Origin: Oscillospiraceae bacterium
Lineage (GTDB): Bacteria > Bacillota > Clostridia > Oscillospirales > Oscillospiraceae
Direction: 5' to 3'
NCBI GenBank assembly: GCA_009784725.1
Contig: WQXS01000014.1
Coordinates: 1-51,645 of the forward strand
Length of the DNA stretch: 51,645 nucleotides
Below the pieces are notes generated by a model. That model did not search any database, had not been told where the DNA came from, and was given only the letters and a program-made list of their open reading frames with translations. Below are positions 4,220 to 27,539 of the stretch, in pieces; position 1 is the stretch's first letter; each line of letters starts with the position of its first letter. The translations under genes were made by a program, and so were the position numbers.

Positions 4220-4254
4220 AATGGCCTGTATTGTTACAGACCATTGATTTTTTT
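4220..4254 (+). terminator. Rho-independent terminator after GH16 gene
   Basis: The imperfect arms AATGGCCTGT and ACAGACCATT (4220-4245) are followed by a T7 run at 4248-4254. It overlaps the last codons of the convergent XRE gene. Confidence 0.7.
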
Positions 4255-4617: not shown

Positions 4618-4650
4618 ACACAAAATGTGTTGACACAACACGTAAAGTGT
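4618..4650. promoter_or_regulatory. Twin operator dyads ACAC-N5-GTGT
   Basis: Two 13-bp dyads, ACACAAAATGTGT (4618-4630) and ACACGTAAAGTGT (4638-4650), have centres exactly 20 bp apart, about two helical turns. The first abuts the -35 hexamer and the second fills the spacer of the block promoter, as expected for a repressor acting cooperatively on one DNA face. The likely ligand is the adjacent XRE protein (inference). Confidence 0.65.
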
Positions 4651-4658
4651 AGCATAAT
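4630..4658 (+). promoter_or_regulatory. Sigma-A-type promoter of the secretion block
   Basis: TTGACA (4630-4635), a 17-bp spacer, then CATAAT (4653-4658). Expected start is about 4665, giving an 85-base leader before the first gene. The -35 hexamer is perfect and the -10 matches five of six. Confidence 0.7.
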
Positions 4659-4749: not shown

Positions 4750-5469
4750 ATGAAGAGAGTTTGCAGTCACTGTTTTCAGGAAATTAAAGAGGGTGAAAAG
4801 AATTGCAGTTTGTGCAAAAACCCGTACATTCCCGTATCTGAAGAAGAAAACTATAAACCTGTAAAAGAGCGGACCATTCGCACAAAACTTCATATACCGA
4901 AAGGGGTACTGGCAATAGTTGCTAGTGCCGTAATTGCCGTTGCCGCTGCAACAGCGGGAACATTACTGTATCTGCGAACCCCCGAAACGCCGGAAAGTGC
5001 TGCACTCAACGGGATAAATATGCTGCTGCATGCCGATATCAGAGAGTTTGCGGCACGTCATGCATTTATGGAGGCAGACATAAGTCTGGCAATACGTACC
5101 GGAAGAGCAGCCATGTGGGATGATGCAGTTCTGCCGCTCGTTTGGAATAAATACAGTAACCTTAACAGTGTTTTAAATGAGTTGGGAAAAAACGATATTA
5201 AAATAAATGCTGTTAACAGTGAAGAGTTAAGCGAGGCGGAAAAAGACGCAGAATTAAAGAAAATTTTTAACTCCATTATCACGGATTCCGACAACAGTCA
5301 GGCCAGAGTGGATATGATTGAATCAATTATTGACAGTATTACCGATGTATACCGTGTTGACTTGGAAGCCACCATAGTTAATGAAAAAGATGCACCTGAT
5401 GCATTAATTATTGTACTTGTCGGGTTGATTGACGGAAAATACTCAATCTTATCGGAAACAATGCAATAA
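4750..5469 (+). CDS. Zinc-ribbon, single-pass membrane protein, first gene of type VII block
   Basis: 239 residues. The N-terminal zinc ribbon has C5-x2-C8 and C19-x2-C22, followed by a basic stretch, one membrane helix at about 54-76, and an outer domain of about 160 residues. No family is recognised for the outer part, which is helical and charged in character. The same layout (cytosolic zinc ribbon, one helix, outer domain) recurs in the last gene of the block at 19681, suggesting related jobs at the two ends of the operon. It sits 40 bp before the vWA gene. A scaffold or sensor role in the envelope is inference only. GAGGTT precedes the ATG. Confidence 0.75.
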   Translation: MKRVCSHCFQEIKEGEKNCSLCKNPYIPVSEEENYKPVKERTIRTKLHIPKGVLAIVASAVIAVAAATAGTLLYLRTPETPESAALNGINMLLHADIREFAARHAFMEADISLAIRTGRAAMWDDAVLPLVWNKYSNLNSVLNELGKNDIKINAVNSEELSEAEKDAELKKIFNSIITDSDNSQARVDMIESIIDSITDVYRVDLEATIVNEKDAPDALIIVLVGLIDGKYSILSETMQ

Positions 5470-5509
5470 AACTATATAGAGCAGGAATATTGAAAGGTAT
5501 AGACAATTA

Positions 5510-6235
5510 ATGGATGACAGAAGAGGTTTCATGGGATCATCACGCCGCGGAAAAAGACCGTCCCGCCACCCGGAAAGTCCGGCGGAGGCGCATGTTGCAC
5601 TTGCATTGGTTCTTGATGTGTCAAGCTCAATGACATATGAAGAAAACGGTGAACGTATAGATGCGCTCAATAATGCAGTCAATGAAATGATTTCACAAAT
5701 GAAAGCAAATGTACGCCTTAAATGTATTGTCGATTTGGCGATATTTTGTTTCGGCAACTATAACAAACCTAAAAACGAAATTATGTACCAGGGATTCAGC
5801 TCTATAGCCTCGTGCGAACAGGTTTATCTGGTGGCGGAGGATGAAAATACTTATGTTGTGGATGTTTTGGAGCATGCACTCGATATAATCGGAAAACGCT
5901 GCGAAGTATACGATAAACTGGGTGGCTCATATAAACCCTGGATTGTTTTGATGACCGACGGAGAGCTGCATGACAGTGCAGCAGAAATTAATGCAATAGG
6001 AAGAAAACTCAAAGAACGCGAATCAAAAGGAAGGCTTCATTTTCTGGGACTTGGAGTCAGAGGTTTTGTACGGTCTCAGCTTGAGAAATTCACAAATAAC
6101 AAAGACCATATTATTGAAATTGAATCAGCAGATTTCGGCGAATTCTTCAAATGGGTCGGAAGAAGCATGAGCGCAGTATCAACAAAAGGATTAAATGATA
6201 ATTTCGAACTCCCGGTTTATCAGCCGAAGCATTAG
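5510..6235 (+). CDS. von Willebrand factor A (TerY-like) protein
   Basis: 241 residues, almost entirely one vWA domain. The metal-ion-dependent adhesion site is intact: D36-x-S38-x-S40 in LVLDVSSSM, a candidate Thr at 114, and D150 in LMTDGE. No signal peptide or membrane helix is visible, so it should be cytosolic. vWA proteins of the TerY type occur in conserved triads with a PP2C phosphatase and a kinase-like protein, exactly the next two genes here (established for TerY-P gene neighbourhoods). It probably binds a partner through its metal site and helps assemble the signalling complex. The basic N-terminal 25 residues are unusual. Confidence 0.88.
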   Translation: MDDRRGFMGSSRRGKRPSRHPESPAEAHVALALVLDVSSSMTYEENGERIDALNNAVNEMISQMKANVRLKCIVDLAIFCFGNYNKPKNEIMYQGFSSIASCEQVYLVAEDENTYVVDVLEHALDIIGKRCEVYDKLGGSYKPWIVLMTDGELHDSAAEINAIGRKLKERESKGRLHFLGLGVRGFVRSQLEKFTNNKDHIIEIESADFGEFFKWVGRSMSAVSTKGLNDNFELPVYQPKH

Positions 6236-6287
6236 AAATTAAGTAATGTGAATATATAACATAAATTATTGAAAGAACAGTAAAACA

Positions 6288-7724
6288 ATGAGTAATTATC
6301 GTTTTTGCGGAAGCTCACAAATAGGGAAATCTCACGAAGTCGATGATACCGTCTGCCAGGACTCGTATTATATACAGCAAGGGAACGGCTTTTTCGTTGC
6401 AGCTGTAGCCGACGGCCTTGGTACTTCCGTGCATTCGGATGTAGCAAGTAAAATTGCCGCAGAAAATTCTGTTAAATATTGTGTTGATAATATCACCACT
6501 TCAATGTCGGATGAGCAAATTCTCAGCGGAATAAAAGACGCATTCGAGCATGCAAATAACTCTGTCAAGCAAGAAGCCGGTGAAAAAATAAATGATTATG
6601 ATACGACGCTTACTCTTGCTTTTTTTAAGGAAGGTGAGCTTTTTTACGGTCATGCAGGTGACAGCGGTATCTTGGCTCTTTGTGCCGACGGCACATTCGA
6701 AGAGGTGACAACCGCACAGCAAGCCGAGGGTGAGGGGAAAGACCGCCCCGTATATCCTCTGATAAACGAATCGCGCTGGGTTTTTGAAAAATTTGATTTA
6801 CCCGTCCATGCGATATATCTGATGACAGACGGAATGCTCAATATGACCGTTCCGCCGATTCTGACAGACCAGCGTTATCATATGGACCATTCTTATCTGT
6901 TTTATCTTTACGAAGAAGTCAGAGACGGCGATGATAATGAGCTTTATGACTGGATCAACGAAGAGCTCGAACAGGTTTCGCCGGGGATGGTCAACTATGA
7001 TGATAAAACACTTGTTGTAGCAATTGACAGTTCTGTCGAGCTGGCAATGCAGCCCGATGAATATTATGAATTTCCAAGTGACTCGCTGTATAAAAGCCTG
7101 CTTGCTCCGAAGCCGGTAGCAGCAGCCGCTGCTCCCCAAAGCTTTTACGAAAAAGTAAAGGGTGTCACAAGCAAGGAATTGTGGAAAAAAAACCGCAAGA
7201 TGATTGCAATGGTAGCAAGCGTTGTTGTTGTGTTTTCGTTGACTATACCTGTTACGGTTACATATATGTCAGGGGTAGGAATTCTTGACCCGATAACTGA
7301 TACCTACCGTCCTTTTACGTTTGCTGAACTTGTGCAGCGAACATTCAATCCGACGGCTTCAAGCGGAGAGAGAGAATTAACGGAAGCGCAATATGTGCGG
7401 CTAAAGGAAATTGCGGATGAAGAAGGTAAACCTATTACAGAAGTATATGATGATGAAGTAGATGAAGATGGTAATCTTCCCGAACCGGAACCGGAACCAA
7501 CACCACCCCCTCAGACTGTGGCGACAACTCCGACTCCGCGCTCAACTCCTACACCACGTCCGACACCGACCCCGCCTACCCCCACCCCCCCCCCCCCGCC
7601 AAACCCCAACCCCAACTACACCGACACCGGTACATGCAACCCCCGCACCCGCACCCGGACATACCCCAACCCCAACCACTCCAACACCGACATATACTGT
7701 GATTTTTCTGAATGGTACGCATGA
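6288..7724 (+). CDS. PP2C-family Ser/Thr phosphatase with membrane helix; frame broken at a C13 tract
   Basis: As read, 478 residues. The PP2C/PPM domain (about 1-250) has its metal-binding acidic residues: D25 in CQDSYY, D42 in VADGLG, D125 in GHAGDSG, D181 in MTDGM and D239 in DDKTLVV. One membrane helix follows at about 304-326, then a Thr/Pro-rich wall-spanning linker. At 7585-7597 a run of 13 C shifts the frame: this frame continues about 40 residues of low-complexity sequence and stops at 7724, while the natural continuation lies in the next frame to 8196. Removing one C (or adding two) would give a 635-residue protein with an InlB-type exodomain. The catalytic part is unaffected, so it should dephosphorylate targets of the neighbouring kinases. 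Confidence 0.85.
   Translation: MSNYRFCGSSQIGKSHEVDDTVCQDSYYIQQGNGFFVAAVADGLGTSVHSDVASKIAAENSVKYCVDNITTSMSDEQILSGIKDAFEHANNSVKQEAGEKINDYDTTLTLAFFKEGELFYGHAGDSGILALCADGTFEEVTTAQQAEGEGKDRPVYPLINESRWVFEKFDLPVHAIYLMTDGMLNMTVPPILTDQRYHMDHSYLFYLYEEVRDGDDNELYDWINEELEQVSPGMVNYDDKTLVVAIDSSVELAMQPDEYYEFPSDSLYKSLLAPKPVAAAAAPQSFYEKVKGVTSKELWKKNRKMIAMVASVVVVFSLTIPVTVTYMSGVGILDPITDTYRPFTFAELVQRTFNPTASSGERELTEAQYVRLKEIADEEGKPITEVYDDEVDEDGNLPEPEPEPTPPPQTVATTPTPRSTPTPRPTPTPPTPTPPPPPNPNPNYTDTGTCNPRTRTRTYPNPNHSNTDIYCDFSEWYA
7585..7597 (+). repeat. Homopolymeric C13 tract inside the PP2C gene
   Basis: Thirteen consecutive C bases lie in the Thr/Pro linker codons. The exodomain is in frame only if the tract has 12 or 15 C. 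Such tracts slip during replication and are also prone to sequencing and assembly error. Confidence 0.9.
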
Positions 7725-8196
7725 GGTTAACAGGCAAAATGTGGCACATGGAGGACATGCAACAACACCATCAGCTCCAACAAGAGAAGGTCATACTTTT
7801 ACCGGTTGGTCAGGGTCATTAACAAATGTGACATCCAATAGAACATTAAATGCTCAATTTTCAGCAAATACATATACAGTAAGATTTTTAAACCATGATG
7901 GCACAGTATATAGAACACGGGACAATATTCCGCATGGTGGCAGTGCAGCAGCACCCAATACTAATCCAACCAGCACCGGATATAATTTTACCGGTTGGTC
8001 AGGGTCGTTAACAAATATAACATCCAATCGAGATATTCATTCTACTTGGACAGAAGTTCATTCCTGTTCAGATCATAGCTGTACTTCATGTTTCCCGGGA
8101 CACAATGCACATACATGCTCTGAGTGTAATCCGGGACACAATGCAAGCACTTGTCCGACTTGCACTCCCCCCGATGATGGCGGCGATGATGAGTAG
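7598..8196 (+). pseudogene. Out-of-frame InlB-repeat exodomain of the PP2C protein
   Basis: This open frame lacks its own convincing start or ribosome site and continues the PP2C linker in the +1 frame: more Thr/Pro linker, then two InlB B-type (Listeria-Bacteroides) repeats of about 63 residues, each with TYTVxFLN, HGG and FTGWSGSLTN, and a Cys/His-rich tail with C-x2-C pairs and two PGHNA units before an acidic end. These repeats form small beta-grasp-like modules on surface proteins. With one base fewer in the C tract it would be the extracellular part of the phosphatase. Treat it as the same gene as 6288-7724. Whether it is expressed depends on the tract length. Confidence 0.75.
7797..8030 (+). 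repeat. Direct repeat in the InlB-type modules
   Basis: The 45-bp segments at 7797-7841 and 7986-8030 match at about 41 positions and sit 189 bp apart, exactly 63 codons. They encode the FTGWSGSLTN core of each InlB-type repeat, so the modules arose by recent duplication or were kept alike by conversion. Confidence 0.85.
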
Positions 8197-8259
8197 AATC
8201 ACTACGATGATTTTTTTCCATACACAATAAACCATAAACCATAAAGGAAAACACAAAAC

Positions 8260-9924
8260 ATGGCATATGAACAAGGACAATTAATTAATGACGGCGGTGA
8301 GGGTTGTATATATGAGGTGAGGGGTAACCCGGGCCTGCTGATGAAGATATACAACGAGAAGGATATACTCGGTAATCCCATTGTCACTGCTGATTTGCAT
8401 AATAAACTAAAATATATGCAGGAAAATCCGCCCGAGGATATGGTAACAAGCGGTGTTGTAGCATGGCCGCTTGAGCTGCTTTATGATGATTCGGACGAAC
8501 TCATCGGATTTGTTATGCCCCGCATGAACTACGACCTGCATATATCGCATACATATAATTACGTTCACCCAAAGCACGAAGCTGAAAAATATAAAGAATT
8601 CCCGTCCGTGGAATCAAGAATCAAAATTGCGATGAACCTTTGTTCTGCTCTTTATGCACTTCATGATAAAGGTTATATCGTAGGAGATTTAAACCACGAT
8701 AATATAGGAGTCAGTTACAGCACGGACAGAATATGCCTTATGGACTGTGACTCGTTTCATATCACAGACGATGCGGGAGATGTATTCAGGACAAATGTAA
8801 TAATGCAGGGATATCTTGCGCCGGAAATAATCGACCACTGCAACAACGAACGTGCAGCCGGAAGACCGTTTAACCTCGATGATGTGGCACTCCCTACATT
8901 TACAAAAGAAAGCGACCTGTTCTGCCTTGCCGTACATATTTTCAAGCTGTTAATGAACGGAGCAGACCCGTTTAGGGGAGTAAAAAAAGGTGTTACCGAA
9001 GCAGCAGGAACGCAGCCTCTCGGAAATGATGCAATTGAACAGAACACATATATGTTCCGTGAAGGTTATGAGCCCTCTTCAGTTTTTTGCCCGCCCGCTG
9101 AAGCATTGCCCCGCAGTATATTCGCACTGTTTGACGATGCGTTTATCCGAAGCAGGGATAACCCTGCCCTGCGCCCCGACTCAACCGACTGGTACTCAAT
9201 ACTGGAACAATATCAAAAGCTTGAACTCACGCAATGCACAAAAAATCAAAAACATCAGTATTATAAAGTACTGAAAACATGCCCGTACTGCGCTGCGGAC
9301 AAAAAAATGCTGGATATCCTCAAAGGAAGAAAAAACTGGTATGACAGCATCGGGATTGTCGCAGCAATTTGCGGTATCCTTCTTGCAGGCGGAATTGGTA
9401 TAGGGCTTACATTTTCACTGATCAGCAGACCAAATACAACAGTAATAACAGGCGGACCGGATGCACCCGGAGTTGTATTGTGGAACGAGCTAAAAGATAA
9501 TCCGCCGGAAATCAAGTCGCCCGAAACCACACCTGTACCAACACCGGTACCGCAATCCAAACCTCCCGAAGAAGGAACCGGGCTTCGTGAGCTTTACGAT
9601 GCAATACTTGAATCAACCGATGAAATTATCCTGGTCATAGAATGGAAGGATATAGCCGATGACCCGAATGACCGCGGATATGCCGTACTGGAACGAACAG
9701 AAGAAAACCAAGAGTGGTTCTTACATAACAGATGGGGAGATGTATTCCCGATTCAACCGGAGTTTACATACAATGACGGCGTATTTTCAATCAGCCAGCC
9801 AACTGTTCATGACAGAGTCTATAACTTAAATGAAGATAATACAGGAATATTCACCAACGCCGATAACGGAGAAGAACTGACCTGGCAGCTCGAGGAAGAC
9901 GAACCGGAATCTGAGGATGATTAA
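8260..9924 (+). CDS. Membrane protein-kinase-like protein (vWA/PP2C-associated type), upstream of essC
   Basis: 554 residues. A kinase fold (about 5-320) has the Gly-rich NDGGEGCIYEV, Lys29 in LLMKIY, catalytic-loop GDLNHDN with D143 and N148, and LMDCDSF at 160-166 in place of DFG. GD-N and D-x-D-S-F variants are characteristic of the kinase partner in TerY/PP2C triads, so activity is plausible. A Cys/His cluster (C326, H332, C341, C344) suggests a zinc site. One membrane helix (about 363-387) leads to a Thr/Pro linker and a ~120-residue outer domain. It lies 57 bp before essC, the place and topology (kinase fold, helix, exodomain) of the pseudokinase EssB/YukC in classical systems, but no direct EssB similarity is recognisable. 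Confidence 0.82.
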   Translation: MAYEQGQLINDGGEGCIYEVRGNPGLLMKIYNEKDILGNPIVTADLHNKLKYMQENPPEDMVTSGVVAWPLELLYDDSDELIGFVMPRMNYDLHISHTYNYVHPKHEAEKYKEFPSVESRIKIAMNLCSALYALHDKGYIVGDLNHDNIGVSYSTDRICLMDCDSFHITDDAGDVFRTNVIMQGYLAPEIIDHCNNERAAGRPFNLDDVALPTFTKESDLFCLAVHIFKLLMNGADPFRGVKKGVTEAAGTQPLGNDAIEQNTYMFREGYEPSSVFCPPAEALPRSIFALFDDAFIRSRDNPALRPDSTDWYSILEQYQKLELTQCTKNQKHQYYKVLKTCPYCAADKKMLDILKGRKNWYDSIGIVAAICGILLAGGIGIGLTFSLISRPNTTVITGGPDAPGVVLWNELKDNPPEIKSPETTPVPTPVPQSKPPEEGTGLRELYDAILESTDEIILVIEWKDIADDPNDRGYAVLERTEENQEWFLHNRWGDVFPIQPEFTYNDGVFSISQPTVHDRVYNLNEDNTGIFTNADNGEELTWQLEEDEPESEDD

Positions 9925-9981
9925 TTATCTGCCATAGTAACCGAATCCATATTAAAGAATAACAAAGGGGGGAACATCTTA

Positions 9982-12900
9982 ATGAATTTTGTCCTTACAA
10001 TTCACTATAAACTGGGAGTTCAAGAGATTTTCCTTCCGAGTATTCAAAACCGTACAGTTACACTTGAGCTTGATAATAAACTAGCGGGCATTAACAAAGA
10101 ACTTACTTTATTACTGGATGTGTTTGACGGTGTATGGATTATACATCCGAACGATTCGGTAACTTTTGACAAATCGCAAACTCTTTCGGACGGCCTTAGA
10201 ATTAATGCAAAGGTTGTAAAAAATAATGACGAAATAATAATCTTTGCCGATGAGCTTAAAGTAAATCAAACACTGTTTAAGAAATACCATGTCGAACCGG
10301 GTTCAAAAATTAAACTGGGTTCAAATGAATCAAATAATATAGTTTACAGCACTAAAAACCTTGTTTCCGGCAATCATTTTGTGATTGAAGAATCATCACG
10401 CGGAGCAGAAATTGTTGATAAAAGCCGAAACGGAACATTTGTTAACGGCAAAAAAGTAAACGGAAGACAAAAAATAAACTACGGTGATGAAATTAATGTT
10501 TTTGGCCTTAAAATAGTATGGCTTAAAGCGTTTATTGCAATCAGCCAAGGTCAAAGCGACTGCAAAATCTCAGGGCTTAAGCCGGTGGACGCAGAGGATT
10601 TTCCTGTCGTTGAAAATGAACCGGCGGATGCAGATGAGTTTTACTCGCGCAGCCCGAGGCAGATTCCAAAGCTTGATGATGAACCGGTGGAGTTTGATTC
10701 ACCTCCGGACTCCGGAATCCGAAGGCAGCGCCCGTTATGGATGGCAATAGGCCCTGCAATGACAATGGTATTGCCTATGACCATAGGTATAATGTTCATG
10801 ATGCTTGCAGCAAGAGCTGCAGACGTTGCAAGAAGCCCGTTTATGTTTATGGGTATATTCACATCTGCAACAGCTGCTTGTATAGGTGTATTTTGGGCAC
10901 TTACAAACGCACGATATCAAAAGAGAGCCGAAAAAGAAGACGAAGAAAAAAGACAAAGCAAATACCGCGGCTATCTGGACCGTATGGAAAGTATCGTTGA
11001 TGAAAAACATGATTATAACCGCATGATTCTTTCCGAGAGTTATCCGAGTATTAATCAAAGCATGGAACTGGTCAGCAGGCTCGACAGTCATTTATGGGAG
11101 CGAAATGTAAATCATCCTGACTTTCTTACAATAAGAATCGGAATGGGTGCAATTCCGTCACCGAATAAGATAGGAGTTCCAAAGGAACGGTTTTCACTCG
11201 TGGATGATGACCTTGCGGAACGTCCGTTTATGATACAAAAAAAGTACAGATTGCTGAAAAATGTACCGATTTTATTATCCCTGCTTGAGCATAAACTGAT
11301 TGGTGTAATAGCCGATAACCGGAGAACCGTTCTGGAAACAGCAAATCTGATTGCAGCCGAGATTGCCGTACTGCATTCATATACCGATGTAAAAATGGTT
11401 TTCATTATACCTCAGACAGAGGACTGGAGCTTTGCAAAATGGCTGCCGCACACATGGGCGGAAGACAACTCAATCCGTTTGATTGCAAATAAACCGAGCA
11501 GCATCGGTGAAGTTCTTTACCATCTTTCGGGAGTGGTAAGGACCCGTTCCGATGATGACAGACAAAAAAGCAATAACCTGCCGCATTATGTTGTTTTTAT
11601 CGGTGACCCTGATCTTGTTGAGCATGAGGCGGCAATGAAATCAATAATGGATAAAGGGCAGGAAATAGGGTTTTCAACAATTCTTTTATATAACGAAATA
11701 GACAGACTGCCGAGCAACTGCACGGTAATCGTTCAAAGGACACAAGAATACAGCGGATATTACAGCTTTGACAACAAATTTGAAGACGTTTCGAAAGTTA
11801 ATTTCGACTCGGTTAAACCCGAACAGCTAAACAATACAACAAGATTTTTGTCGGGAGTTAAGGTTAAAGAAGCCGAAGGCTCCGGTGCAATCCCTCAAAT
11901 GCTGACTTTCCTTGATATGTACAAAACAAGCAAAGCCGATGGCATAGATATATACAGAAACTGGCTTGAAAACCGTACATATGAAAGCATGAAAGCAATG
12001 ATCGGCGCCCGAGGCGGAGGAACTCCCGTATACTTGGATATTCATGAAAAATATCACGGGCCGCACGGACTTGTTGCAGGCACAACAGGCTCGGGTAAGA
12101 GTGAAATGCTGCAGACATATATTCTTTCGCTTGCCGTCAGCTATCATCCGCATGAGGTTTCATTTATTCTCATCGACTATAAAGGCGGAGGAATGGCAGA
12201 GAGCTTTAAGGCACTCACTCATGTTGCAGGTATAATAACAAACCTCGGCGGAAACCAGACAAACCGTGCTCTTGCATCAATCAGAAGTGAAATAAAACGC
12301 CGTCAGGCGGTCTTTAACGAATATAAAATCAAACACATAGACGACTATATCGAACTGTACCGTGCAGGAAAAGCGGGAGACCCGATGCCGCACCTGCTTA
12401 TTATCGCCGATGAGTTTGCGGAGCTTAAAAAAGAACAGCCGGAATTTGTCCGTGAGCTTGTCAGTGCATCAAGGGTCGGGCGCAGTCTCGGAGTCCACCT
12501 GATACTTGCAACACAAAAACCCGACGGTGTTGTCGATGATCAGATCTGGTCAAACACAAAATTCAGAGTATGTCTGCGGGTTGCAGAGAAAGCAGACAGT
12601 ATGGGTATGCTGAAGCATCCGGAGGCTGCATATATTACGCAGGCAGGACGGGGATTCTTCCAGGTCGGTAACGATGAAATATTCGAAGAATTCCAATCTG
12701 GATGGTCGGGAGCCCGTTATGAGCCGGACATACCTTTTTCCGATGAAAAAAGCAGCGATGTAAAACTGATAAATCTTTGGGGCCGTGCAAGAGTGCTCAG
12801 TACAGGTAAAAAGAAAGAAACCGCATCGGAAGAAAAACAGATTCAACTCGATATTGTGACAGCCTACATTGCAGAAATTGCAAAAAAGCACGGAATTGAA

Positions 12901-14568: not shown

Positions 14569-14571
14569 AAA

Positions 14572-15303
14572 ATGGAATATTCTCCGTCTTTGGCATTATG
14601 GGACGACAAACCGAAACGTGCTTTAATCCTGAAAAACCTTCTTGATATGTTTGCACCGGAGGACAAGGAAACAACGCTGCTGCCGAATGAACTGCTGCCG
14701 CCCATTGAGAATCATGATGTTGTTTTTCTTTCATTTGATGAATGCGACGAAGCTGCACTGAGTGCAGCACGTTCGGTACGTATATCAAACGATATGACAT
14801 ACCTGATGCTGATAGGTGATAAAAACAGTAATTTTCAGCCATTCTTTAAGCCGAAAATCAGACCGAGCGGAGTACTTTTTCATCCGTTGCAAACACCAAT
14901 ACTGCGCGAATCATTGGAAGAAATTGCAGAAGAATTTCAGCGGCTGACACAATCGGAAAATGATGAAATGTATGTACTCAAATCCGAGGGTGTGACATAC
15001 AGAATCGCATACAGGGATATACTTTTCTTTGAAGCAGACAATAAACAGATAATGCTGCATACATCCGGTCAGGCAATCCGGTATTACGAATCAATGGAAA
15101 ATCTGGCAACGGTTTTACCCGGTTATTTTATACGGTGCCACAGAGGTTATATAGTGAACATACGCAAGGTGGAGGAAGTACGGAGTGCCGAGATGGAGCT
15201 GAGATTATCCGGCGGCTACAGGATTCCGTTTTCACGTTCAAAACGCAGTGCAGTATCGGATGCATTGTCCCTGAAGGGTCAAGCTTCTGCTGATGTAAAC
15301 TGA
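14572..15303 (+). CDS. LytTR DNA-binding regulator with receiver-like N-terminus
   Basis: 243 residues. The C-terminal LytTR domain (about 130-235) contains YRIAYRDILFFEADNKQI, FIRCHRGYIVNIRKV and GYRIPFSRSKR, the usual DNA-binding features. The N-terminal ~115 residues look like a receiver fold (ALILKNLLDMF, HDVVFLSFD, ending GVLFHPLQTPILRESL like the conserved Lys-Pro strand), but acidic-pocket and phosphoacceptor residues are not in place, so it is probably phosphorylation-independent. The ATG is 3 bp after the essC stop, hence co-translated with the motor. It may activate the WXG gene group downstream: a single LytTR-like 9-mer, ACCGTTCGT, lies at 15950 upstream of 16022 (weak evidence). 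Confidence 0.83.
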   Translation: MEYSPSLALWDDKPKRALILKNLLDMFAPEDKETTLLPNELLPPIENHDVVFLSFDECDEAALSAARSVRISNDMTYLMLIGDKNSNFQPFFKPKIRPSGVLFHPLQTPILRESLEEIAEEFQRLTQSENDEMYVLKSEGVTYRIAYRDILFFEADNKQIMLHTSGQAIRYYESMENLATVLPGYFIRCHRGYIVNIRKVEEVRSAEMELRLSGGYRIPFSRSKRSAVSDALSLKGQASADVN

Positions 15304-15316
15304 AAGGATAACCAAA

Positions 15317-15667
15317 ATGGATATATCTTTTATCTTCACTGCAGATGAAATTTTCACTTTAGCATCAATGATAAATAACCATTCACCTGCCGGAAAAGAA
15401 TTTATCGGCAATGCTCTGACGGATGCACAGATATGTGATTTATCGAGCCTGGCAGAAAAAGAACATGCACAAATTAACGGGGATAAGTTGGAGCTTGAGC
15501 CTGTAATCCGTATGGTTTTTGACACTGTAACAAAAGCGGTAAGGGTTGTGAATGTTGACGATTACTGGATGATATATTCAAACCGGTTAACACTTAAATG
15601 TGAAAAGTACCGGTTTAAAGAGAACTCCTGGAAAATATCACCAATAAAAGGAGCAGCGGAACAATGA
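15317..15667 (+). CDS. Unrecognised 116-residue protein of the type VII block
   Basis: No family recognised. No signal peptide or membrane helix; predicted mixed alpha/beta. It sits 13 bp after the LytTR gene and its stop overlaps the YukD-like gene start by 4 bp, so it is translated with that partner. The sequence begins MDISFIFTADEIFTLASMI and has a central YWMIYSNRLTL strand. A substrate-chaperone or YukD-binding role is possible from position, but nothing in the sequence proves it. AAAGGATAA gives a good ribosome site. Confidence 0.7.
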   Translation: MDISFIFTADEIFTLASMINNHSPAGKEFIGNALTDAQICDLSSLAEKEHAQINGDKLELEPVIRMVFDTVTKAVRVVNVDDYWMIYSNRLTLKCEKYRFKENSWKISPIKGAAEQ

Positions 15668-15912
15668 AAATATTTATTGAAATTAATACACCGGGAAACG
15701 GCAAGAGTTATGAACTGCTCCTTGATGACAAGCTTACGGTAGGTGCAGCGAAGGAAATGATAATTGAACAAATAACTGCATTCGAAAATAATCATATTAT
15801 TTTTGATGAAGAGGCGGCATTATTTTCAACAGCAGAACGTATAAAATTACAGGATCACCGTAACCTGCGAAAAGCCGGGGTGGAAAGCGGAAATGTTTTA
15901 TTGCTTCTTTGA
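15664..15912 (+). CDS. YukD/EsaB-like ubiquitin-fold protein
   Basis: 82 residues, the size of YukD/EsaB. The pattern MKIFIEIN, SYELLLDDKLTVGAAKEMI and ending in RKAGVESGNVLLLL fits a beta-grasp (ubiquitin-like) fold with the characteristic G-D/N-x-L final strand. EsaB/YukD are cytosolic accessory proteins of Firmicutes type VII systems. It starts inside the stop of the previous gene (ATGA overlap) and lies between the motor and the secreted-protein genes. It lacks a C-terminal GlyGly, so no conjugation role is implied. Confidence 0.8.
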   Translation: MKIFIEINTPGNGKSYELLLDDKLTVGAAKEMIIEQITAFENNHIIFDEEAALFSTAERIKLQDHRNLRKAGVESGNVLLLL

Positions 15913-15990
15913 AGTTAAAGCATCAGATACAAGTGACACCATTTTTATTACCGTTCGTCAGAATGAACCATCCATAAAATTGCAGGCATG

Positions 15991-15996
15991 TATAAT
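15991..15996 (+). promoter_or_regulatory. Possible internal promoter (-10) before WXG genes
   Basis: TATAAT preceded directly by TG, 25 bases before the ATG at 16022, in a 109-bp gap that contrasts with the tight spacing upstream. No good -35 hexamer is seen, which would suit an activator-dependent promoter. Confidence 0.4.
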
Positions 15997-16021
15997 AGAG
16001 CCATCATGGAGGAGATAAACA

Positions 16022-16333
16022 ATGTCTGACTTTAATTATACAAAAACAAATCCCAAAGGTCTTGATACTTCGGCAAGAAGCATTGAAGAGAGCATAATAA
16101 GGATTGAAAGCGCAATTTCAACAATTGATGAGTCGCTGCGTTCCCTTGAAACCTCATGGACCGGCGAAGGCAGTACAGCGTTTTTCGACAGATATAACAT
16201 TGATATAAATAATTTCAACATGCTGATTAAAAAACTTAAATTACTAAACGGGCAATTAAGTCAGGCGGCAGGAATATATGACAAAGCAGACGATGAAGCA
16301 AACAACATTGTGAGCAACCTGAGTATCGGCTAA
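16022..16333 (+). CDS. WXG100-family protein 1
   Basis: 103 residues; two helices around W46-T-G48 (SWTGEG), the hairpin turn of ESAT-6/WXG100 proteins. The C-terminal helix carries Y86-DKA-D90, a YxxxD type VII export signal. Strong GGAGGAGA ribosome site. It should form helical-bundle dimers and be exported by EssC. First of a tandem group of WXG-like genes, 13 bp before the next. Confidence 0.9.
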   Translation: MSDFNYTKTNPKGLDTSARSIEESIIRIESAISTIDESLRSLETSWTGEGSTAFFDRYNIDINNFNMLIKKLKLLNGQLSQAAGIYDKADDEANNIVSNLSIG

Positions 16334-16346
16334 AGAGGTAAAAGTT

Positions 16347-16697
16347 ATGTCTGACAATATGAACATTAAAATAGATACCGGTAAAATGAAAGAAGCCGCA
16401 GGTATTGTTGAGAGCCAAATGAACATTATCACCAACTGCTTCGCAAGTATAAGAGATGACGTAAATATATTAAAAGCAAATAACTGGGAAAGCGACAGCG
16501 CAGATATTTTTATCAGGGGTATTAACAAAATCTGTAATGAACAGTTGGATGACAATACAGTAACTGCCGGGAGCATTATACAAACCTTAAAGGATTATAC
16601 AGCAAATCTTAATAATACAGCGGCAGCATTTGACACAGAAGATCAAAAACAAAACGATAAAATTGCATCGTTAAAAACAAGCATATTCGGAGTGTAG
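16347..16697 (+). CDS. WXG100-like protein 2
   Basis: 116 residues, all-helical with the central turn NNWESDS (W47-E-S49), so the Gly of WxG is replaced by Ser. FDTED near the C-terminus resembles the YxxxD export motif with Phe for Tyr. The start MSDNMNIKIDTGKMKEAAGIVE is typical of the family. It lies 13 bp after protein 1 and 11 bp before protein 3 and may pair with one of them as a heterodimer. Confidence 0.8.
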   Translation: MSDNMNIKIDTGKMKEAAGIVESQMNIITNCFASIRDDVNILKANNWESDSADIFIRGINKICNEQLDDNTVTAGSIIQTLKDYTANLNNTAAAFDTEDQKQNDKIASLKTSIFGV

Positions 16698-16708
16698 ACG
16701 AGGATTAT

Positions 16709-16999
16709 ATGGAAATTTCATTAGACTATTCAAAAGCGGAGCGTCAGGCAGATACTCTTGAGCAATGCGGAAATGACATGCTGCAGCAGAGTAATGATAT
16801 AAGTAATTTAATCACCGAAATACGCCGTGCCTGGCAGGGGGATACCTCAGAGATATACATAAAAAAGCTTGAAGCTTTGGGAAACGATTTAAAGCAAAGC
16901 TCCGATAAATGCAAGCAGGATGCAAAGGACTTCCGTGCAAGGATTAACTCGATAAGAAAAGCCGACGAGGAAGCAAGAGCATTTATAGAAAAGAAGTAA
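16709..16999 (+). CDS. WXG100-family protein 3
   Basis: 96 residues with W42-Q-G44 (RAWQGDTSEIYIKKL), a canonical WxG hairpin between two amphipathic helices. The tail has IRKADEEA where others have YxxxD/E, then a short Lys-rich end. It is 11 bp after protein 2, so the first three genes are one tight transcription group, followed by a 158-bp gap. Exported helical-bundle protein by family. Confidence 0.88.
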   Translation: MEISLDYSKAERQADTLEQCGNDMLQQSNDISNLITEIRRAWQGDTSEIYIKKLEALGNDLKQSSDKCKQDAKDFRARINSIRKADEEARAFIEKK

Positions 17000-17157
17000 A
17001 ATACAACTCACTCCAATAAACAGGTCATTCATCAGACCCGGCAACAGATGAAAAGCAGTATATGCTACATTAGAATCACAGAAGGAAAGCACCGCAAAAA
17101 ATGAATGTTATACATACTTGTATGTTTTGACATAAATAAAAATTAAGGAGCAAAGAA
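17000..17157 (+). promoter_or_regulatory. 158-bp gap with palindrome and TTGACA
   Basis: Holds the small palindrome ACATAC-tt-GTATGT (17112-17125) and a TTGACA at 17127-17132 without a matching -10 before the next ATG. A separate control point for WXG protein 4 is possible. Nothing else is recognisable. Confidence 0.3.
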
Positions 17158-17451
17158 ATGGAAATTAAAATTGACCCCAAATCAGTAAAGAACCATGTTG
17201 AGGAAATCAGAGCAGCAGCACGACAATACCAGCAAATGGAAGACCAAATGTTTGCAGACGGCAGAGATCTTGATACAAAGTGGGATGGCGCAGCAGCAGA
17301 CAAATTCGGATCAAAGATGAAAAATGAAGAGCCGTACTTTGATGAACTTTTTACAATCGCAGAGCAATGGTGTAAAGCAATCGACGATAGTGCAGACGAT
17401 TATGCAAAAACTGACAGCCAGGTCAGCGATAGCGTATCAACAAGAATATAA
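17158..17451 (+). CDS. WXG100-family protein 4
   Basis: 97 residues, the best match to a classical EsxA-like protein: MEIKIDPKSV start, W42-D-G44 in TKWDGAAADKF, and Y82-AKT-D86 (YxxxD export signal) in the C-terminal helix. AAGGAG ribosome site. It has its own upstream gap with possible control elements and 44 bp to the next gene. Likely the main secreted partner for the EssC motor, but which of the paralogues is structural and which is effector cannot be told here. Confidence 0.9.
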   Translation: MEIKIDPKSVKNHVEEIRAAARQYQQMEDQMFADGRDLDTKWDGAAADKFGSKMKNEEPYFDELFTIAEQWCKAIDDSADDYAKTDSQVSDSVSTRI

Positions 17452-17495
17452 ACATAAAAGTTCAAAATGAATTATTAAATTAAGGGAGAAAAATA

Positions 17496-17822
17496 ATGAT
17501 TACAATAAATGTTATTAACGTAAGTATGGGCGAGTTCGATAGCAAATTAGGTGCATTCAGAGACCATCGTGCAAAGTTGCAAAGTTTCATAGAAAAATGG
17601 GAAGCAATGATTGACGCAATAACAACAGTAGCATGGTTAAGCCCGGCATCAGCAGCACTGCTTGTCAAGTTTAGAACATTAATTGCAGCAGTAAAAGTAT
17701 CTTTGCAGATAGTAGATAAGTTTATTCAAGATTTGGAAGAAGCGAAAAGATTGTTCACAGCTGTTGACAACAGAGCAGAGCAAACAGCAAACAGCTTGAC
17801 AACAAGCGCATTTGGTTCATAA
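17496..17822 (+). CDS. WXG100-like protein 5 (degenerate)
   Basis: 108 residues, helical, with AWLSPAS (W47-L-S49) at the WxG position and FTAVDNRAEQ (FxxxD) in the last helix. The start MITINVINVSMGEFDSKL differs from the others. A hydrophobic stretch around 55-75 (ALLVKFRTLIAAVKVSLQIV) is unusual for a soluble bundle protein and may be buried or membrane-active. GGGAG ribosome site. Classified from gene order and helix pattern more than from motif strength. Confidence 0.7.
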   Translation: MITINVINVSMGEFDSKLGAFRDHRAKLQSFIEKWEAMIDAITTVAWLSPASAALLVKFRTLIAAVKVSLQIVDKFIQDLEEAKRLFTAVDNRAEQTANSLTTSAFGS

Positions 17823-17854
17823 GCAACCGTTATAGGATTTTGAAAAACAGACGT

Positions 17855-17892
17855 TTAAGGAAGCGGGAATGTTATACCTCCTGCTTCCTTAA
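17855..17892 (+). terminator. Hairpin between WXG proteins 5 and 6
   Basis: Ten-base perfect arms TTAAGGAAGC (17855-17864) and GCTTCCTTAA (17883-17892), no T tract after. It may slow or process the transcript and lower expression of the kinase genes relative to the WXG genes. Confidence 0.45.
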
Positions 17893-17910
17893 GGCAAAAA
17901 GGTGACAGTT

Positions 17911-18330
17911 ATGTCTCAGTACGAAATTTCAATAATACCGATAAATGAAGCAAGCGATAAGATTAATCTGCTTGTTAACCGGATAAGTGAAGTCTCAGAG
18001 CGCCTTCATGGTGTTCAGATTGACTTGCCTTCAAGTTTTAATGACATAAAAAGGCAAATTAATGTCCGTATTGAATCTGTAGACAAGCATAAATCACAAA
18101 CAGCGAAACTGAGTCAGGCACTTAAAGAGGTATCTGATATATATAAAAGAGCAGAGCAAACGGCAATAAGCTCTGATGTTAATGAAAATAATACAGCGGG
18201 AACACCGGGCATTGCCTATAAATTGCAGCGAAGAGCAAACTCCGGGCAAGGAGTTATATTATCGCGAAGGCTAATAATGCCTGACTGGCTCCAAATGGCA
18301 GTTGTAGAGTATGAGCAGTCAGGATTGTAA
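17911..18330 (+). CDS. WXG-related helical protein 6 with C-terminal extension
   Basis: 139 residues from the ATG at 17911; AAAAAGGTGA lies at ideal spacing, so this start is preferred to the in-frame GTG at 17902. Two long helices flank a turn DLPSSF with no Trp, and the second helix ends in YKRAE (YxxxE), the same place and type of export signal as in the WXG paralogues. A basic 40-residue tail with ANSGQGVILSRRLIMPDW follows. It could be a secreted partner with a processed or functional tail. The family assignment is by gene order and helix/YxxxE pattern only. Confidence 0.65.
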   Translation: MSQYEISIIPINEASDKINLLVNRISEVSERLHGVQIDLPSSFNDIKRQINVRIESVDKHKSQTAKLSQALKEVSDIYKRAEQTAISSDVNENNTAGTPGIAYKLQRRANSGQGVILSRRLIMPDWLQMAVVEYEQSGL

Positions 18331-18381
18331 AAAACGCAGCAGAAACACCATCGGAATGACACAAGGAGAAGCAGGGTATAA

Positions 18382-19602
18382 ATGGACATAGGTTATTTCA
18401 AAAAATATGAACCTCTATTCAAGACTTATTATATAAAAAAGTTCCTTGGAGAAGGAAGCTTCGGAAAAGTATTTTTAATTGAACGCGAAAGCTTCGGTCA
18501 GAAATACAGTGCCGCCCTTAAACTTATTACAATACCGCAAAGCAAAAGAGATTTGGAAAATAAACTGAGCTATATGACCGAGGCAAATGTGAGGTCATAT
18601 TATGAGGATATAGTCAATGGCATTGTCAGTGAATTCCACCTGATGTCAAAGCTTAAAGGCAACAGCCATATCGTCAGCTATGAAGACCATGATGTTATAT
18701 TGCATGATGGTGAAATAGGCTGGGACATTCTGATACGGATGGAGCTGCTGACACCCCTCCCGCAGCATACGGACCTGCAGAAAATCTCTCCGAAAGAGGT
18801 TGTAAAGCTTGGCATTGACATATGCAAGGCTCTGGAAAAATGTCAGAAGGAAGACATTATCCACAGAGATATTAAACCTGAAAACATATTTGTTTCTGCA
18901 GACGGAGATTATAAGCTCGGAGATTTTGGTGTTGCAAGAACAATTGAAAAAACAACAGGTGATTTTACGAGAATTGGCACTCCGCCGTATATGGCTCCCG
19001 AAATTCACAGCGGAAGCCAGTATGCATCATGTATAGATATATACTCTCTCGGACTTGTGATTTACCGTCTGCTCAATAAAAACAGAATGCCGTTTCTTCC
19101 CGCATATCCGCAAAAAATGGAACCCGGTGATGAAGAAACAGCAACTGCAAGGCGTATAAAAGGTGATGAAATACCGCCTCCGTTAAATGCAGATAAAAAG
19201 CTTGCTGAAGTTGTTCTTAAGGCATGTGCATTTAAGCCGCAGGACAGATACCAGAATCCTGCAGACCTGCGCAGTGATCTCGAAGCGATTCTGCGTGAAA
19301 ATGCTTCTGAGTTAAATGAAGCAATACCTGATACTAATGCAACAGAAAATGAAAAAACATCCGGTATTGAAGAAACTCCGTATGAACCTGCCGCTGTTTC
19401 TTCAAAAACCGAGCTTTTAATGAACTCGGACTCCGCTCTTGAACCAAAAAGCAGCAAAGTAATTAATAAAGTGCAAGTCACTCCGCCGGCTCAGAAAAAA
19501 CGTGTGAAAATCGGTTTTATTCTGTGTCCCAAATGCGGAGCGGAAATCCGCAGAGACAGTATTTCCTGCATATCCTGCAGAAGCCAGCTCAGAAGCATAT
19601 AA
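18382..19602 (+). CDS. Ser/Thr protein kinase with C-terminal zinc ribbon
   Basis: 406 residues. Canonical Hanks-type kinase domain (about 15-290): GEGSFGKV loop, Lys47 in AALKLI, HRDIKPEN with D163 and N168, D181-F-G, and GTPPYMAPE. After a low-complexity acidic linker (about 300-365) there is a zinc ribbon, CPKC and CISC, in the last 25 residues. No membrane helix, so it is cytosolic, unlike the kinase-like protein at 8260. It should phosphorylate Thr/Ser on partners; the EssC FHA domain is the natural reader and the PP2C protein the natural eraser. 51 bp after protein 6. AAGGAG ribosome site. Confidence 0.92.
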   Translation: MDIGYFKKYEPLFKTYYIKKFLGEGSFGKVFLIERESFGQKYSAALKLITIPQSKRDLENKLSYMTEANVRSYYEDIVNGIVSEFHLMSKLKGNSHIVSYEDHDVILHDGEIGWDILIRMELLTPLPQHTDLQKISPKEVVKLGIDICKALEKCQKEDIIHRDIKPENIFVSADGDYKLGDFGVARTIEKTTGDFTRIGTPPYMAPEIHSGSQYASCIDIYSLGLVIYRLLNKNRMPFLPAYPQKMEPGDEETATARRIKGDEIPPPLNADKKLAEVVLKACAFKPQDRYQNPADLRSDLEAILRENASELNEAIPDTNATENEKTSGIEETPYEPAAVSSKTELLMNSDSALEPKSSKVINKVQVTPPAQKKRVKIGFILCPKCGAEIRRDSISCISCRSQLRSI

Positions 19603-19680
19603 CATAGGCGATAAAGCCCGGCAGTGACATAAAAACTCCTAAGGAATCAACATTATTATAAAAGGCGGAACAAAGCAGAT

Positions 19681-21372
19681 ATGGAATGTAAAGGCTGTAA
19701 AAAATCAATACCATCCGACAGTGTAATTTGTCCTTATTGCATGAAAAAAATAAGGAAAGGGGATGCGCCGATAGCGGAGAAGCTTAGAAAAAGGCTTGGA
19801 AGACCTGCAAAAGGAACGGATGCTCCCGTAGACCTGGAACTGAGAAAACTAAAGAAACGCCTGCTAATAATAGGCATACCTGTTGCAGCCGCTCTTATTG
19901 CAGGGGTTATTTGGCTGATAGTCAGCAATATAGACGACCCGCCTGAAACCGGCATCGAGAGCCGTGTCTTCACAGAACCTCTTCCCGAAGACTGCCCGCC
20001 GGAGCTTCTTAAACCATGGCGGCCGGAAAGGGCTTTGGAACTTACTTCATTTATCTGGGGTGATTATATATTGGAACTCCCGGAATACACACAGCTGCTT
20101 GACGGAGCATCACTTGCAGATATTAATTTAACAGGAGTTATGACTTCACTTGGAATGCAGTTTGAAGAGATGACAGTAAACGGAAATATCGAGCAGGTAT
20201 CAATACTTCCCCTCAGAATCACGGCAGGGCCGAGAAATATAGACCATAGTTATGTAGCGGATTTTATGAATGAAGGCTACGGTTTTATGTCATACGGGGT
20301 ATTTTGTGAAGTTACATATGATGTGATTTATACAGGCTTGCCATACGAAGTAGAGGGCAATAAACTGATTGTTTACCGCGAGTGGTGGCATGGTGGGGAT
20401 GACTCAACGGATATAGGTGTTTACGATGATTCAAAGGTCGAAATTGAGTATTATTTTGAAGGATATAACCTGGTTCTTGAGCGTAATGATATAAAGGTAA
20501 AGCTGACACCCCGGCGCTTTGCAGACGAAAACCCGTGGATAATAATTTCGCATCAAGTCTCGGGTAATAATGCCTTTAACGAAATTGCATATATAGAACA
20601 TGTTGTCACACCCTTAATGCCCGACGGATCAATAAGAACAGGTGACGGTTCATTTATCAGCTTTAGTGATATTGCATCAAAGGATGAAGTAGTAATTGAG
20701 CTGTATAAAGAAGGTATAATGCGCATAATTCAGGGCAGAAAAACAGACATAACGGAAAATTCCGAATCAAACGAAAATGAAACAGTGCTTTGGGCAAGGT
20801 TTTTATGGTGTGCAAATGACGGGCTTATTCTAATAGACGAAAACGGACAGTACCATTTATATCAGGAGCTGTATACGGAAACTGTTAAAGCAGAACCGAC
20901 CCCGACACCTCTTACACTGATTGAAAGATTGGAAATAGCTCTTACGGAAGCAGGTATTAAACACGAAATCGACCCGGTGAGAGGGACAATATCAGCTTCG
21001 GCAGAATCGGATGTGCTTTTTGACGTTAATAAATATGAACTGTCAGACAGCGGTAAAGAGTATCTTATAAAGTATTTTGATGTCCTTGCCATGGTTATGC
21101 AAAGTGATGAGTTTACAGGCAGTGTTGCAGAAATATTGGTTGAAGGTCATACCTGCTCGAGAGGAACATATAACATGAACCTAAGGCTTTCCGAACGGCG
21201 TGCCGAAGCGGTAAAAATCTTTGCAGAATCAGTTCACCCGGAGCTGGCAGAAATTATGGACACGGTTGGTTTGTCATACGACCGTCCCATCCTTGACGAA
21301 AACGGAAATGAAGACAGAGATGCCTCAAGACGGGTGGTATTCCTCTTTACATTCAAAACACCGGTTGGTTAA
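19681..21372 (+). CDS. Zinc-ribbon membrane protein with OmpA-type peptidoglycan-binding domain
   Basis: 563 residues. N-terminal zinc ribbon C3-x2-C6 and C17-x2-C20, a basic segment, one membrane helix (about 61-84), a ~330-residue outer region of unknown family, a short Thr/Pro linker near 410, then an OmpA/MotB C-terminal domain (about 435-560): VLFDVNKYELSDSG, ILVEGHTCSRG, NLRLSERRAEAV and DRDASRRVVF. OmpA domains bind diaminopimelate-type peptidoglycan, so the protein probably ties the complex to the wall. The zinc ribbon and helix repeat the plan of the first gene of the block. OmpA domains are less usual in Gram-positive secretion loci. Last gene before a strong terminator. Confidence 0.88.
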   Translation: MECKGCKKSIPSDSVICPYCMKKIRKGDAPIAEKLRKRLGRPAKGTDAPVDLELRKLKKRLLIIGIPVAAALIAGVIWLIVSNIDDPPETGIESRVFTEPLPEDCPPELLKPWRPERALELTSFIWGDYILELPEYTQLLDGASLADINLTGVMTSLGMQFEEMTVNGNIEQVSILPLRITAGPRNIDHSYVADFMNEGYGFMSYGVFCEVTYDVIYTGLPYEVEGNKLIVYREWWHGGDDSTDIGVYDDSKVEIEYYFEGYNLVLERNDIKVKLTPRRFADENPWIIISHQVSGNNAFNEIAYIEHVVTPLMPDGSIRTGDGSFISFSDIASKDEVVIELYKEGIMRIIQGRKTDITENSESNENETVLWARFLWCANDGLILIDENGQYHLYQELYTETVKAEPTPTPLTLIERLEIALTEAGIKHEIDPVRGTISASAESDVLFDVNKYELSDSGKEYLIKYFDVLAMVMQSDEFTGSVAEILVEGHTCSRGTYNMNLRLSERRAEAVKIFAESVHPELAEIMDTVGLSYDRPILDENGNEDRDASRRVVFLFTFKTPVG

Positions 21373-21398: not shown

Positions 21399-21440
21399 AG
21401 CAAAGCGGCAAACTATGCTTCGGTGTTTGCCGCTTTGCTT
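21399..21440. terminator. Bidirectional terminator, 16-bp perfect arms
   Basis: AAGCAAAGCGGCAAAC (21399-21414) pairs perfectly with 21425-21440 around a 10-base loop, followed by TCTT on the plus strand and an A/T-rich run on the other. It ends the secretion block and the convergent response-regulator gene; the last codons of the latter lie inside the stem. Confidence 0.88.
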
Positions 21441-21838
21441 TCTTGCAGTTCTCTTTTTAGCTGCTCGACAAGCAGGAGGTTGTTTATACGGCGGAGGAGG
21501 AGCGGGCCGTAGAAGGGTTTCGTTACGTAGTCCACAGCGCCGAGGTCAAGGCCTTTTGCGGCGCTTTCTTCGTCGTCTTTTGCGGTGATGAAAACAACGG
21601 GGACATCCTTAAAACGCGGACTTTCCTTCATAAGTGCAATTGCTTCAAACCCGTCCATTTCAGGCATGCTGATATCGAGCAGCACCATATCGGGGATAAA
21701 ATTATCCATTATCTGAAAGAGTTTTGCTGCCGACGGCGCAGGATAAATATCATAATATGGCTTCAGTAAAGTCCTTACTACAGACAAGTACGACGCATTA
21801 TCGTCAACAATTATTATCTTTTTCCGTGTATTTTCCAT
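21413..21838 (-). CDS. Single-domain CheY-like response regulator
   Basis: 141 residues, one receiver domain plus a short helical tail, no output domain. Acidic pair D12/D13, phosphoacceptor D55 in LLDISMPEMDG, T85 and K107 (VTKPF) are all present, so phosphorylation is expected. It lies 13 bp downstream of the hybrid kinase gene, whose Hpt domain is a probable phosphodonor. The 16 or so residues after the fold contain the coding part of the shared terminator stem. Confidence 0.92.
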   Translation of the reverse strand: MENTRKKIIIVDDNASYLSVVRTLLKPYYDIYPAPSAAKLFQIMDNFIPDMVLLDISMPEMDGFEAIALMKESPRFKDVPVVFITAKDDEESAAKGLDLGAVDYVTKPFYGPLLLRRINNLLLVEQLKRELQESKAANTEA

Positions 21839-21851
21839 TTTTTATACCCCG

Positions 21852-27527: not shown

Positions 27528-27539
27528 TTTATCTACCTC

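Follow-up and report, generated by a model that had tools for sequence, protein, structure and literature searches.

Is the type VII secretion system (T7SS) encoded in the genome of a clostridial bacterium controlled by Ser/Thr phosphorylation and, if so, is that control a fixed part of the machine or a set of genes that can be exchanged around it? This question is raised by a contig of 51,645 nucleotides from an Oscillospiraceae bacterium (WQXS01000014.1, contig C14 of a 2.77 Mb genome that is 98.4% complete), which we call the window and in which positions 4750-21372 form a block of 16 genes, every one of them on the plus strand. An initial annotation, made from the sequence alone, described one plus-strand block holding an EssC ATPase with an FHA domain, a YukD-like protein, WXG-like proteins, a vWA protein, a PP2C phosphatase, two kinases, a LytTR protein and zinc-ribbon proteins. 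Open reading frame (ORF) calls and Pfam searches confirm this description and all the families are present; the gene content has to be amended in the PP2C gene, which changes frame at a run of C and has repeats in the other frame. We propose with moderate confidence that the block is an operon for an FHA-EssC T7SS, in which a conserved core would be joined to an exchangeable phosphorylation cassette regulating export.

A conserved secretion core with different signalling genes

The nearest EssC relative of the window lies in a metagenome-assembled genome (locus L006), and window and L006 are sister loci suited to comparison. Ten genes are collinear between them: those encoding EssC (9982-14568; 62% identity), the LytTR-domain protein directly 3' of it (14572-15303; 50%), a small protein between LytTR and YukD that we name ORF116 (15317-15667; 46%), the YukD/EsaB ubiquitin-like protein (15664-15912; 67%), five WXG100-like proteins (34-42%) and a helical protein (17902-18330; 33%). 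L006 presents two further insertions, a TPR protein and a protein of 535 residues. The signalling genes are not the same. L006 has a separate FHA protein, a PP2C (PF00481, 1e-11) and a kinase with a transmembrane segment (TM) and TPR, whereas the window has a TerY-P triad (vWA, PP2C and kinase), a TM-less zinc-ribbon kinase and a zinc-ribbon/OmpA protein, with the triad occupying the place of the FHA and PP2C genes of L006. The vWA, PP2C, TM kinase and zinc-ribbon proteins of the window had no counterpart among the 15 proteins of L006, and for the 3' kinase of the window the alignment with L006 covered only 119 residues, at 31%. What is new in this analysis is that a ten-gene core is collinear with L006 yet the signalling genes differ; because the secretion core matches and the kinase and phosphatase genes do not, the comparison suggests that control by phosphorylation is something that can be plugged into the export machine. 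A collinear core that keeps the company of kinases and phosphatases despite the genes being different points to a recurrent functional need and not to inherited linkage.

The products by which type VII secretion is recognised, namely an EssC-type ATPase with TMs and FtsK domains, WXG100 proteins and a YukD-like protein, are all found in the core. EssC carries an FHA domain (residues 102-183; Pfam 2.4e-10), two TMs by hydropathy and FtsK domains (2.3e-52), and scores 1138 bits on the EssCb model (NCBIfam equivalog TIGR03928, cut-off 778) against 392 on EccCa. The LytTR domain is clear (Pfam 5.9e-22). Two WXG100 proteins (16022-16333 and 17158-17451) exceed the Pfam and NCBIfam cut-offs, while three WXG100-like proteins (16347-16697, 16709-16999 and the weak 17496-17822) stay below threshold, as do YukD (3.7e-4, with no NCBIfam match), the zinc ribbons and the kinase beginning at 8260; the small genes among these are supported by L006, where their homologues stand in the same order. 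An iterated profile recovered weaker relatives of the 17902 protein in L013, L053 and L054. ORF116 and the seven ORFs at its place in L006, L008, L010, L012, L013, L024 and L042 gave no informative family match in Pfam or NCBIfam; that ORF116 may be an EspG/EsaE-like chaperone is our guess. The models of EssA, EssB and EsaA matched none of the 16 block proteins (Pfam E<=1; NCBIfam E<=0.1), in agreement with the initial annotation, so that the three proteins that mark a T7SSb locus are not recognised here; a plain T7SSb is rejected on this ground and because the EssC falls in another part of the tree.

Signalling genes beside related EssC proteins

Matches to EssC were found in 15 of 200 genomes of the family (E<=1e-30), 29 of 394 of the order and 30 of 391 of the class (both E<=1e-60), the own genome being counted each time and the three samples overlapping. 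We studied 62 related loci (L006-L067, comprising 60 fetched stretches and two named loci), including L021 of the own genome and short contigs such as L023 (3.3 kb); the matches in G731, G923, G778, G412 and G175 and the second places of G856 and G470 were left unfetched. Genes were annotated with home-made profiles (E<=1e-3), those for the triad genes being built from single sequences, and the 53 loci whose EssC was matched by the home-made FHA profile, which T7SSb FHA domains escape, are called the FHA-EssC loci.

In the EssC tree, which includes L083 and L084 (both outside the counts), the window pairs with L006 inside a set of 13 rows supported at 100. The support was 99 in a repeat tree without two long branches (L078, which is on a very long branch of the first tree, and L048); L023 and L052 are absent from all trees. 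LytTR directly follows EssC in nine of the 13 rows, and in eight of those nine, L011 being excluded, LytTR and YukD are separated by an ORF of 114-257 residues. The EssB-bearing rows (L021, L044 and L083) form a separate group with L063, on whose 14.7-kb stretch no EssB was seen despite this grouping.

Among the 53 FHA-EssC loci a separate FHA protein is present in 29, a kinase in 20 and a PP2C in 18; at least one signalling gene is found in 43, a kinase together with a PP2C in 10 and all three in 4. Any kinase, PP2C or FHA gene was found in only 2 of 20 control stretches, which were hand-picked from long contigs, one per genome from 20 of the related genomes, three of them (G464, G580 and G823) belonging to loci without a detected FHA domain in EssC. 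We therefore reject that signalling genes lie near EssC by chance: as a class, kinase, PP2C and FHA genes are enriched beside FHA-EssC. Multi-sequence profiles add weak matches to PP2C in L014, L018, L040 and L051 and to vWA in a protein of 864 residues encoded in L013 (3-2594; 1.6e-6); the kinase profile of this kind cross-matches canonical kinases.

The signalling make-up of the 13 is varied. L012 encodes a DUF6382-FHA protein, its DUF6382 slightly below the cut-off, and in L013 (16487-18040) a fusion of vWA and FHA is followed by a PP2C. Directly 5' of the EssC of L008 lies a kinase of 1540 residues with 14 PASTA stretches (11571-16193). A protein near the EssC of L010 (12045-13391) combines peptidoglycan-binding stretches with an FHA domain, another possible link to the cell wall.

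The signalling genes of the block and the TerY-P triad elsewhere

The block opens with a single-TM protein (4750-5469) whose zinc ribbon was recognised by its Cys motif by eye, Pfam being below threshold and the TM resting on hydropathy. The triad follows: a TerY-type vWA protein (5510-6235; PF00092 6.7e-6, with tblastn matches to plasmid vWA proteins), a PP2C_2 phosphatase (6288-7724; 8.3e-26) with a TM by hydropathy (residues 306-324) and a Pro/Thr-rich tail, and a divergent Ser/Thr kinase of TerY-P type (8260-9924; 6.3e-6, below the Pfam cut-off) with a Cys/His zinc ribbon (residues 326-344), a TM (364-382) and an extracytoplasmic tail. Beyond the secretion core lie a canonical Ser/Thr kinase with a sub-threshold C-terminal zinc ribbon and no TM (18382-19602; 3.5e-35), and a protein made of a sub-threshold zinc ribbon, a TM by hydropathy and an OmpA/MotB-like domain of peptidoglycan-binding type (19681-21372; OmpA 1.7e-8, PADLOC ZorB model 6.8e-32). 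By eye, the catalytic motifs of both kinases and of the PP2C seem intact.

The two features by which a TerY-P system is told, vWA, PP2C and kinase genes in a row and a kinase with a C-terminal zinc ribbon, are both present in the window. Despite its sub-cut-off Pfam score the 8260 kinase is related to TerY-P kinases: it aligns with the triad kinases of Granulicella and P. syringae plasmids, and C326, H332, C341, C344 and the catalytic positions are invariant in all five aligned kinases. The order vWA-PP2C-kinase recurs on those plasmids and in L078 (5178-13775), where the triad precedes a TM-less FtsK/EssC-like ATPase of 1129 residues and two WXG100 genes; the L078 kinase has a TM and is the nearest to that of the window (moderate support, 94/93). 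With the window kinase as query, kinases of this type came up in three of the 200 genomes of the family (E<=1e-5) and, at the level of the class, in five of 391 (E<=1e-8); the five-row alignment matched seven of the 398 genomes of the phylum (E<=1e-25). The own genome is counted in each case, and distant triads can escape limits as strict as these. TerY-P triads are known from loci for tellurite resistance and for defence; here one adjoins a membrane secretion machine.

The PP2C frame changes at a tract of 13 C (7585-7597, plus strand), shortly past which the catalytic frame stops; the catalytic domain and the TM precede it. An overlapping plus-strand frame (7462-8196) with two List_Bact_rpt repeats (PF09479 9.8e-16; TIGR02543) apparently encodes the C-terminal portion of the phosphatase. 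The tract is the sole run of at least eight C or G in the window, and so long a run is less improbable there, where C-rich codons for Pro and Thr abound. The one assembly is compatible with an error of sequencing or assembly, with slippage and with a fixed change as the source of the shift in frame.

Comparison with known systems

The initial annotation regarded the union of type VII secretion and Ser/Thr signalling in one unit as a novelty. This claim has to be abandoned, since such unions are published in two articles. Kinases, phosphatases and FHA proteins are reported in T7SSc-T7SSj by Garrett, Higginson and Palmer (2024, PMC11217815), who describe intact or partial phosphothreonine motifs in T7SS FHA domains and draw the analogy with type VI secretion (T6SS); control of the newer subtypes by phosphorylation has been proposed from gene neighbourhoods. 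Units of TerY-P, EssC-like and WXG100 genes appear in PMC11090510, citing Anantharaman 2012, and L078 looks like a unit of this type. A wholly new union is accordingly rejected. The particular combination of a TerY-P triad with a membrane FHA-EssC was unnamed in the titles and abstract starts of open-licence PMC articles among the matches listed.

By domain content the window resembles T7SSc, with its WXG100, YukD-like protein, EssC-type ATPase and a vWA/kinase/phosphatase set: a vWA protein, a TM kinase and a PPM/PP2C phosphatase are present in the window, and we set them beside TscD/E/F by description (PMC11217815). T7SSc also has an EspG-like chaperone, TscG, to which ORF116 would be the protein to compare. 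Unlike the window, T7SSc has an EssC without FHA and nearer to EccC, and its phosphatase is predicted to be cytoplasmic, that of the window having a TM; LytTR, the second kinase and the zinc-ribbon/OmpA protein are extras of the window. No T7SSc reference was recognisable by plasmid tblastn among the matches listed (40 and 60) or in the four regions inspected.

The other comparisons with that article are likewise by description. FHA-EssC and a phosphatase are shared with T7SSe, T7SSf and T7SSj, a membrane kinase with e and j, and the TPR kinase of L006 recalls TsjD of T7SSj; in contrast to these subtypes the window has a TerY-P triad and lacks the separate DUF6382-FHA protein (TsxJ) and the large Ig-like protein (I). 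With T7SSi it shares FHA-EssC and a LytR-like regulator (by domain, set beside TsiC and TsiN, respectively, by description). T7SSi is described with EspG-like (TsiG) and TshM-like (TsiM) parts, and ORF116 is unassigned; PP2C and vWA go unmentioned for T7SSi in the section consulted. The units of PMC11090510 resemble the window in vWA, PP2C, zinc-ribbon kinase, FtsK/EssC-like ATPase and WXG100. In their ATPase a coiled coil replaces FHA and TMs; the EssC of the window is a membrane protein and is accompanied by YukD. T7SSb shares the EssC equivalog score, YukD and WXG100, but the EssA/EssB/EsaA models are unmatched in the block and the T7SSb of the host is at another locus. The PpkA-Fha-PppA set of the T6SS threonine-phosphorylation pathway is a possible functional analogy, a kinase, a phosphatase and an FHA protein governing a secretion machine; the machine is another one, no homology is claimed, and in the window Ser replaces the Arg of the FHA domain.

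How phosphorylation might act on export

Taking these results together, control of the window T7SS by phosphorylation is likely, as judged from gene content and order. The core (EssC, LytTR, ORF116, YukD, the five WXG100-like proteins and the 17902 protein) would export WXG100-type proteins. The membrane-anchored zinc-ribbon kinase of the triad could sense a cue from outside, from the envelope or from metal and would phosphorylate some part of the secretion complex, for which LytTR, YukD, ORF116 and the zinc-ribbon proteins are candidates equally with EssC; the membrane-anchored PP2C would reverse this, the vWA protein may scaffold the kinase/PP2C pair, and WXG100 export would be gated by the phosphorylation state. 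The zinc-ribbon/OmpA-type protein probably fixes the machine to the cell wall, and LytTR may govern transcription. A bolder version, in which Oscillospiraceae-like T7SS cores have swapped unrelated phosphorylation modules, TerY-P has taken over here, and a surface half of PP2C switched at the C tract gives a stochastic setting of secretion, is in our view unlikely.

Several observations weigh against the proposed operon with an exchangeable cassette, and the first group concerns the FHA domain. FHA domains of the Rad53 type have R, S, H and N at four positions of their site, the Arg contacting phosphate. EssC contains the one FHA domain recognisable by Pfam over the block proteins, and it reads S, S, H, N at these positions, so that the conserved phosphothreonine motif of the T7SSe/T7SSj type is not found in it. 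Among the main FHA domains of 53 EssC rows including the window (a different 53 from the FHA-EssC loci counted above), 32 have the Arg and 25 all four residues; in the 13 of the clade the Arg column shows six Arg, six Ser and one Asn, and all four are kept in three (L008, L012 and L013). The separate FHA protein of L006 keeps R, S, H and N, and the window has no such separate protein. The Ser at the phosphate-binding Arg position makes the role of reader doubtful. Writer, eraser and FHA reader had been claimed to be all present; adopting a conservative view, we reject a complete circuit of this kind: whatever ligand the sole FHA domain may have kept, it should not be taken for granted that it reads phosphothreonine. 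From the distinct phospho-gated variant that the initial annotation envisaged, we retain a unit other than T7SSb whose kinases and phosphatase are encoded in one string, and regard gating by FHA as conjectural.

A second group of contrary observations concerns conservation. In ten of the 53 FHA-EssC loci the fetched stretch shows neither a kinase nor a PP2C nor a separate FHA gene. Three of these ten, L007, L009 and L024, belong to the window's own 13; L024 is a contig of 7.4 kb, and the genome of L009 also holds L008, which has kinases. None of the 62 related loci has a vWA, PP2C, TM kinase, zinc-ribbon/OmpA or 4750 protein of the window type; signalling genes not conserved beside essC had been named as a refutation by the initial annotation, and for the triad itself this is what is observed. 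The window is the single instance seen of the triad beside a membrane FHA-EssC, and no EssC was seen with the other fetched triads (L080, L081 and L086-L091), some of them on short contigs. We read these results as a function that recurs among relatives without being invariable, and that exchangeable genes provide. Three genomes of the same genus (G008, G111 and G176) gave no EssC match at E<=1e-30, which indicates that the operon is accessory.

The third group concerns expression. Intergenic gaps run from -4 to 158 bases, with one exception between PP2C and kinase, where 535 bases follow 7724; counting the second PP2C frame, which runs to 8196, reduces this gap to 63. That the block is a single transcript is a plausible prediction. 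In the present assembly, however, the PP2C gene is split across frames, and terminator-like sites are more numerous than by chance (26 against 15.9 in shuffles, sd 4.3), five of them on the plus strand within block genes. Promoter-like sites stand at chance level (41 against 41.6), the best one (TTGACA-17-CATAAT, score 11/12; 4630-4658, plus strand) lying upstream of the block.

In the alternative that survives best, the TerY-P triad would be a self-contained cassette for stress or defence, inserted in front of the secretion genes but exerting no control over them. Triads without EssC elsewhere, the link of TerY-P triads to restriction loci in PMC11090510, and the absence of the triad from every one of the 62 related loci, L006 included, speak for it. 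In the window, on the contrary, the triad is embedded in the string of genes: a zinc-ribbon membrane gene precedes it, essC follows after 57 bases, and it occupies the site of the FHA and PP2C genes of L006; the nearest triad, that of L078, is likewise directly 5' of an EssC-like ATPase and WXG100 genes. We consequently regard an independent cassette as rather improbable, though a serious contender.

Decay would explain the missing arginine of the FHA domain and the frame change that breaks the phosphatase at the C tract, leaving no working circuit. Against this, the 15 genes other than that of PP2C are open frames, the S, H and N of the FHA domain are jointly retained in 10 of the 13 clade members, Ser at the Arg place is common to six of the 13, and the frame changes beyond the catalytic domain and TM at a likely site of sequencing error or slippage. 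A decaying locus is thus distinctly unlikely.

The host genome also carries a second EssC at G000:C17 20387-40287 (L021), in a locus of T7SSb type with the only EssB of the genome (PF10140 185.7 bits, over the cut-off; TIGR03926 1.3e-46, under it), an EsaA-like protein (TIGR03929 3.5e-20, under the cut-off), a marginal YukD match and one WXG100 protein; this EssC/EssB/EsaA-like set implies that the host has a T7SSb and, separately, the system of the window. An EssB/EsaA set encoded elsewhere had been foreseen as a challenge to the annotation, and it does exist, but next to its own EssC. That the window holds an incomplete T7SSb borrowing EssB and EsaA from C17 is very improbable, given this adjacency, the placement of the window EssC in a different part of the tree, and the finding of EssB in only 2 of the 62 loci (L021 and L044), both outside the FHA-EssC set, a count that is partly circular because the profile defining the set misses T7SSb FHA domains.

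Genes flanking the operon

On the 5' side of the block is a divergent helix-turn-helix protein (4234-4563, minus strand), XRE-like by eye and a candidate for operon regulator. On the 3' side a response regulator and a hybrid sensor kinase (21413-24626) converge with the operon. The aldo-keto reductase of the flank was unmatched in the three genomes of the same genus, which is uninformative alone. G111 retains the sensor-kinase/response-regulator pair without the operon (67% over 785 and 64% over 135 residues); on its 19.9-kb stretch, 33 window proteins gave one further match, a cross-hit of a second sensor kinase to the same gene, and G111 has 47 matches to the flanking sensor kinase at E<=1e-20. 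Further along the window, two neighbouring SPFH/Band-7 proteins (26484-28517) adjoin a hybrid sensor kinase with a Cache domain (28510-31227).

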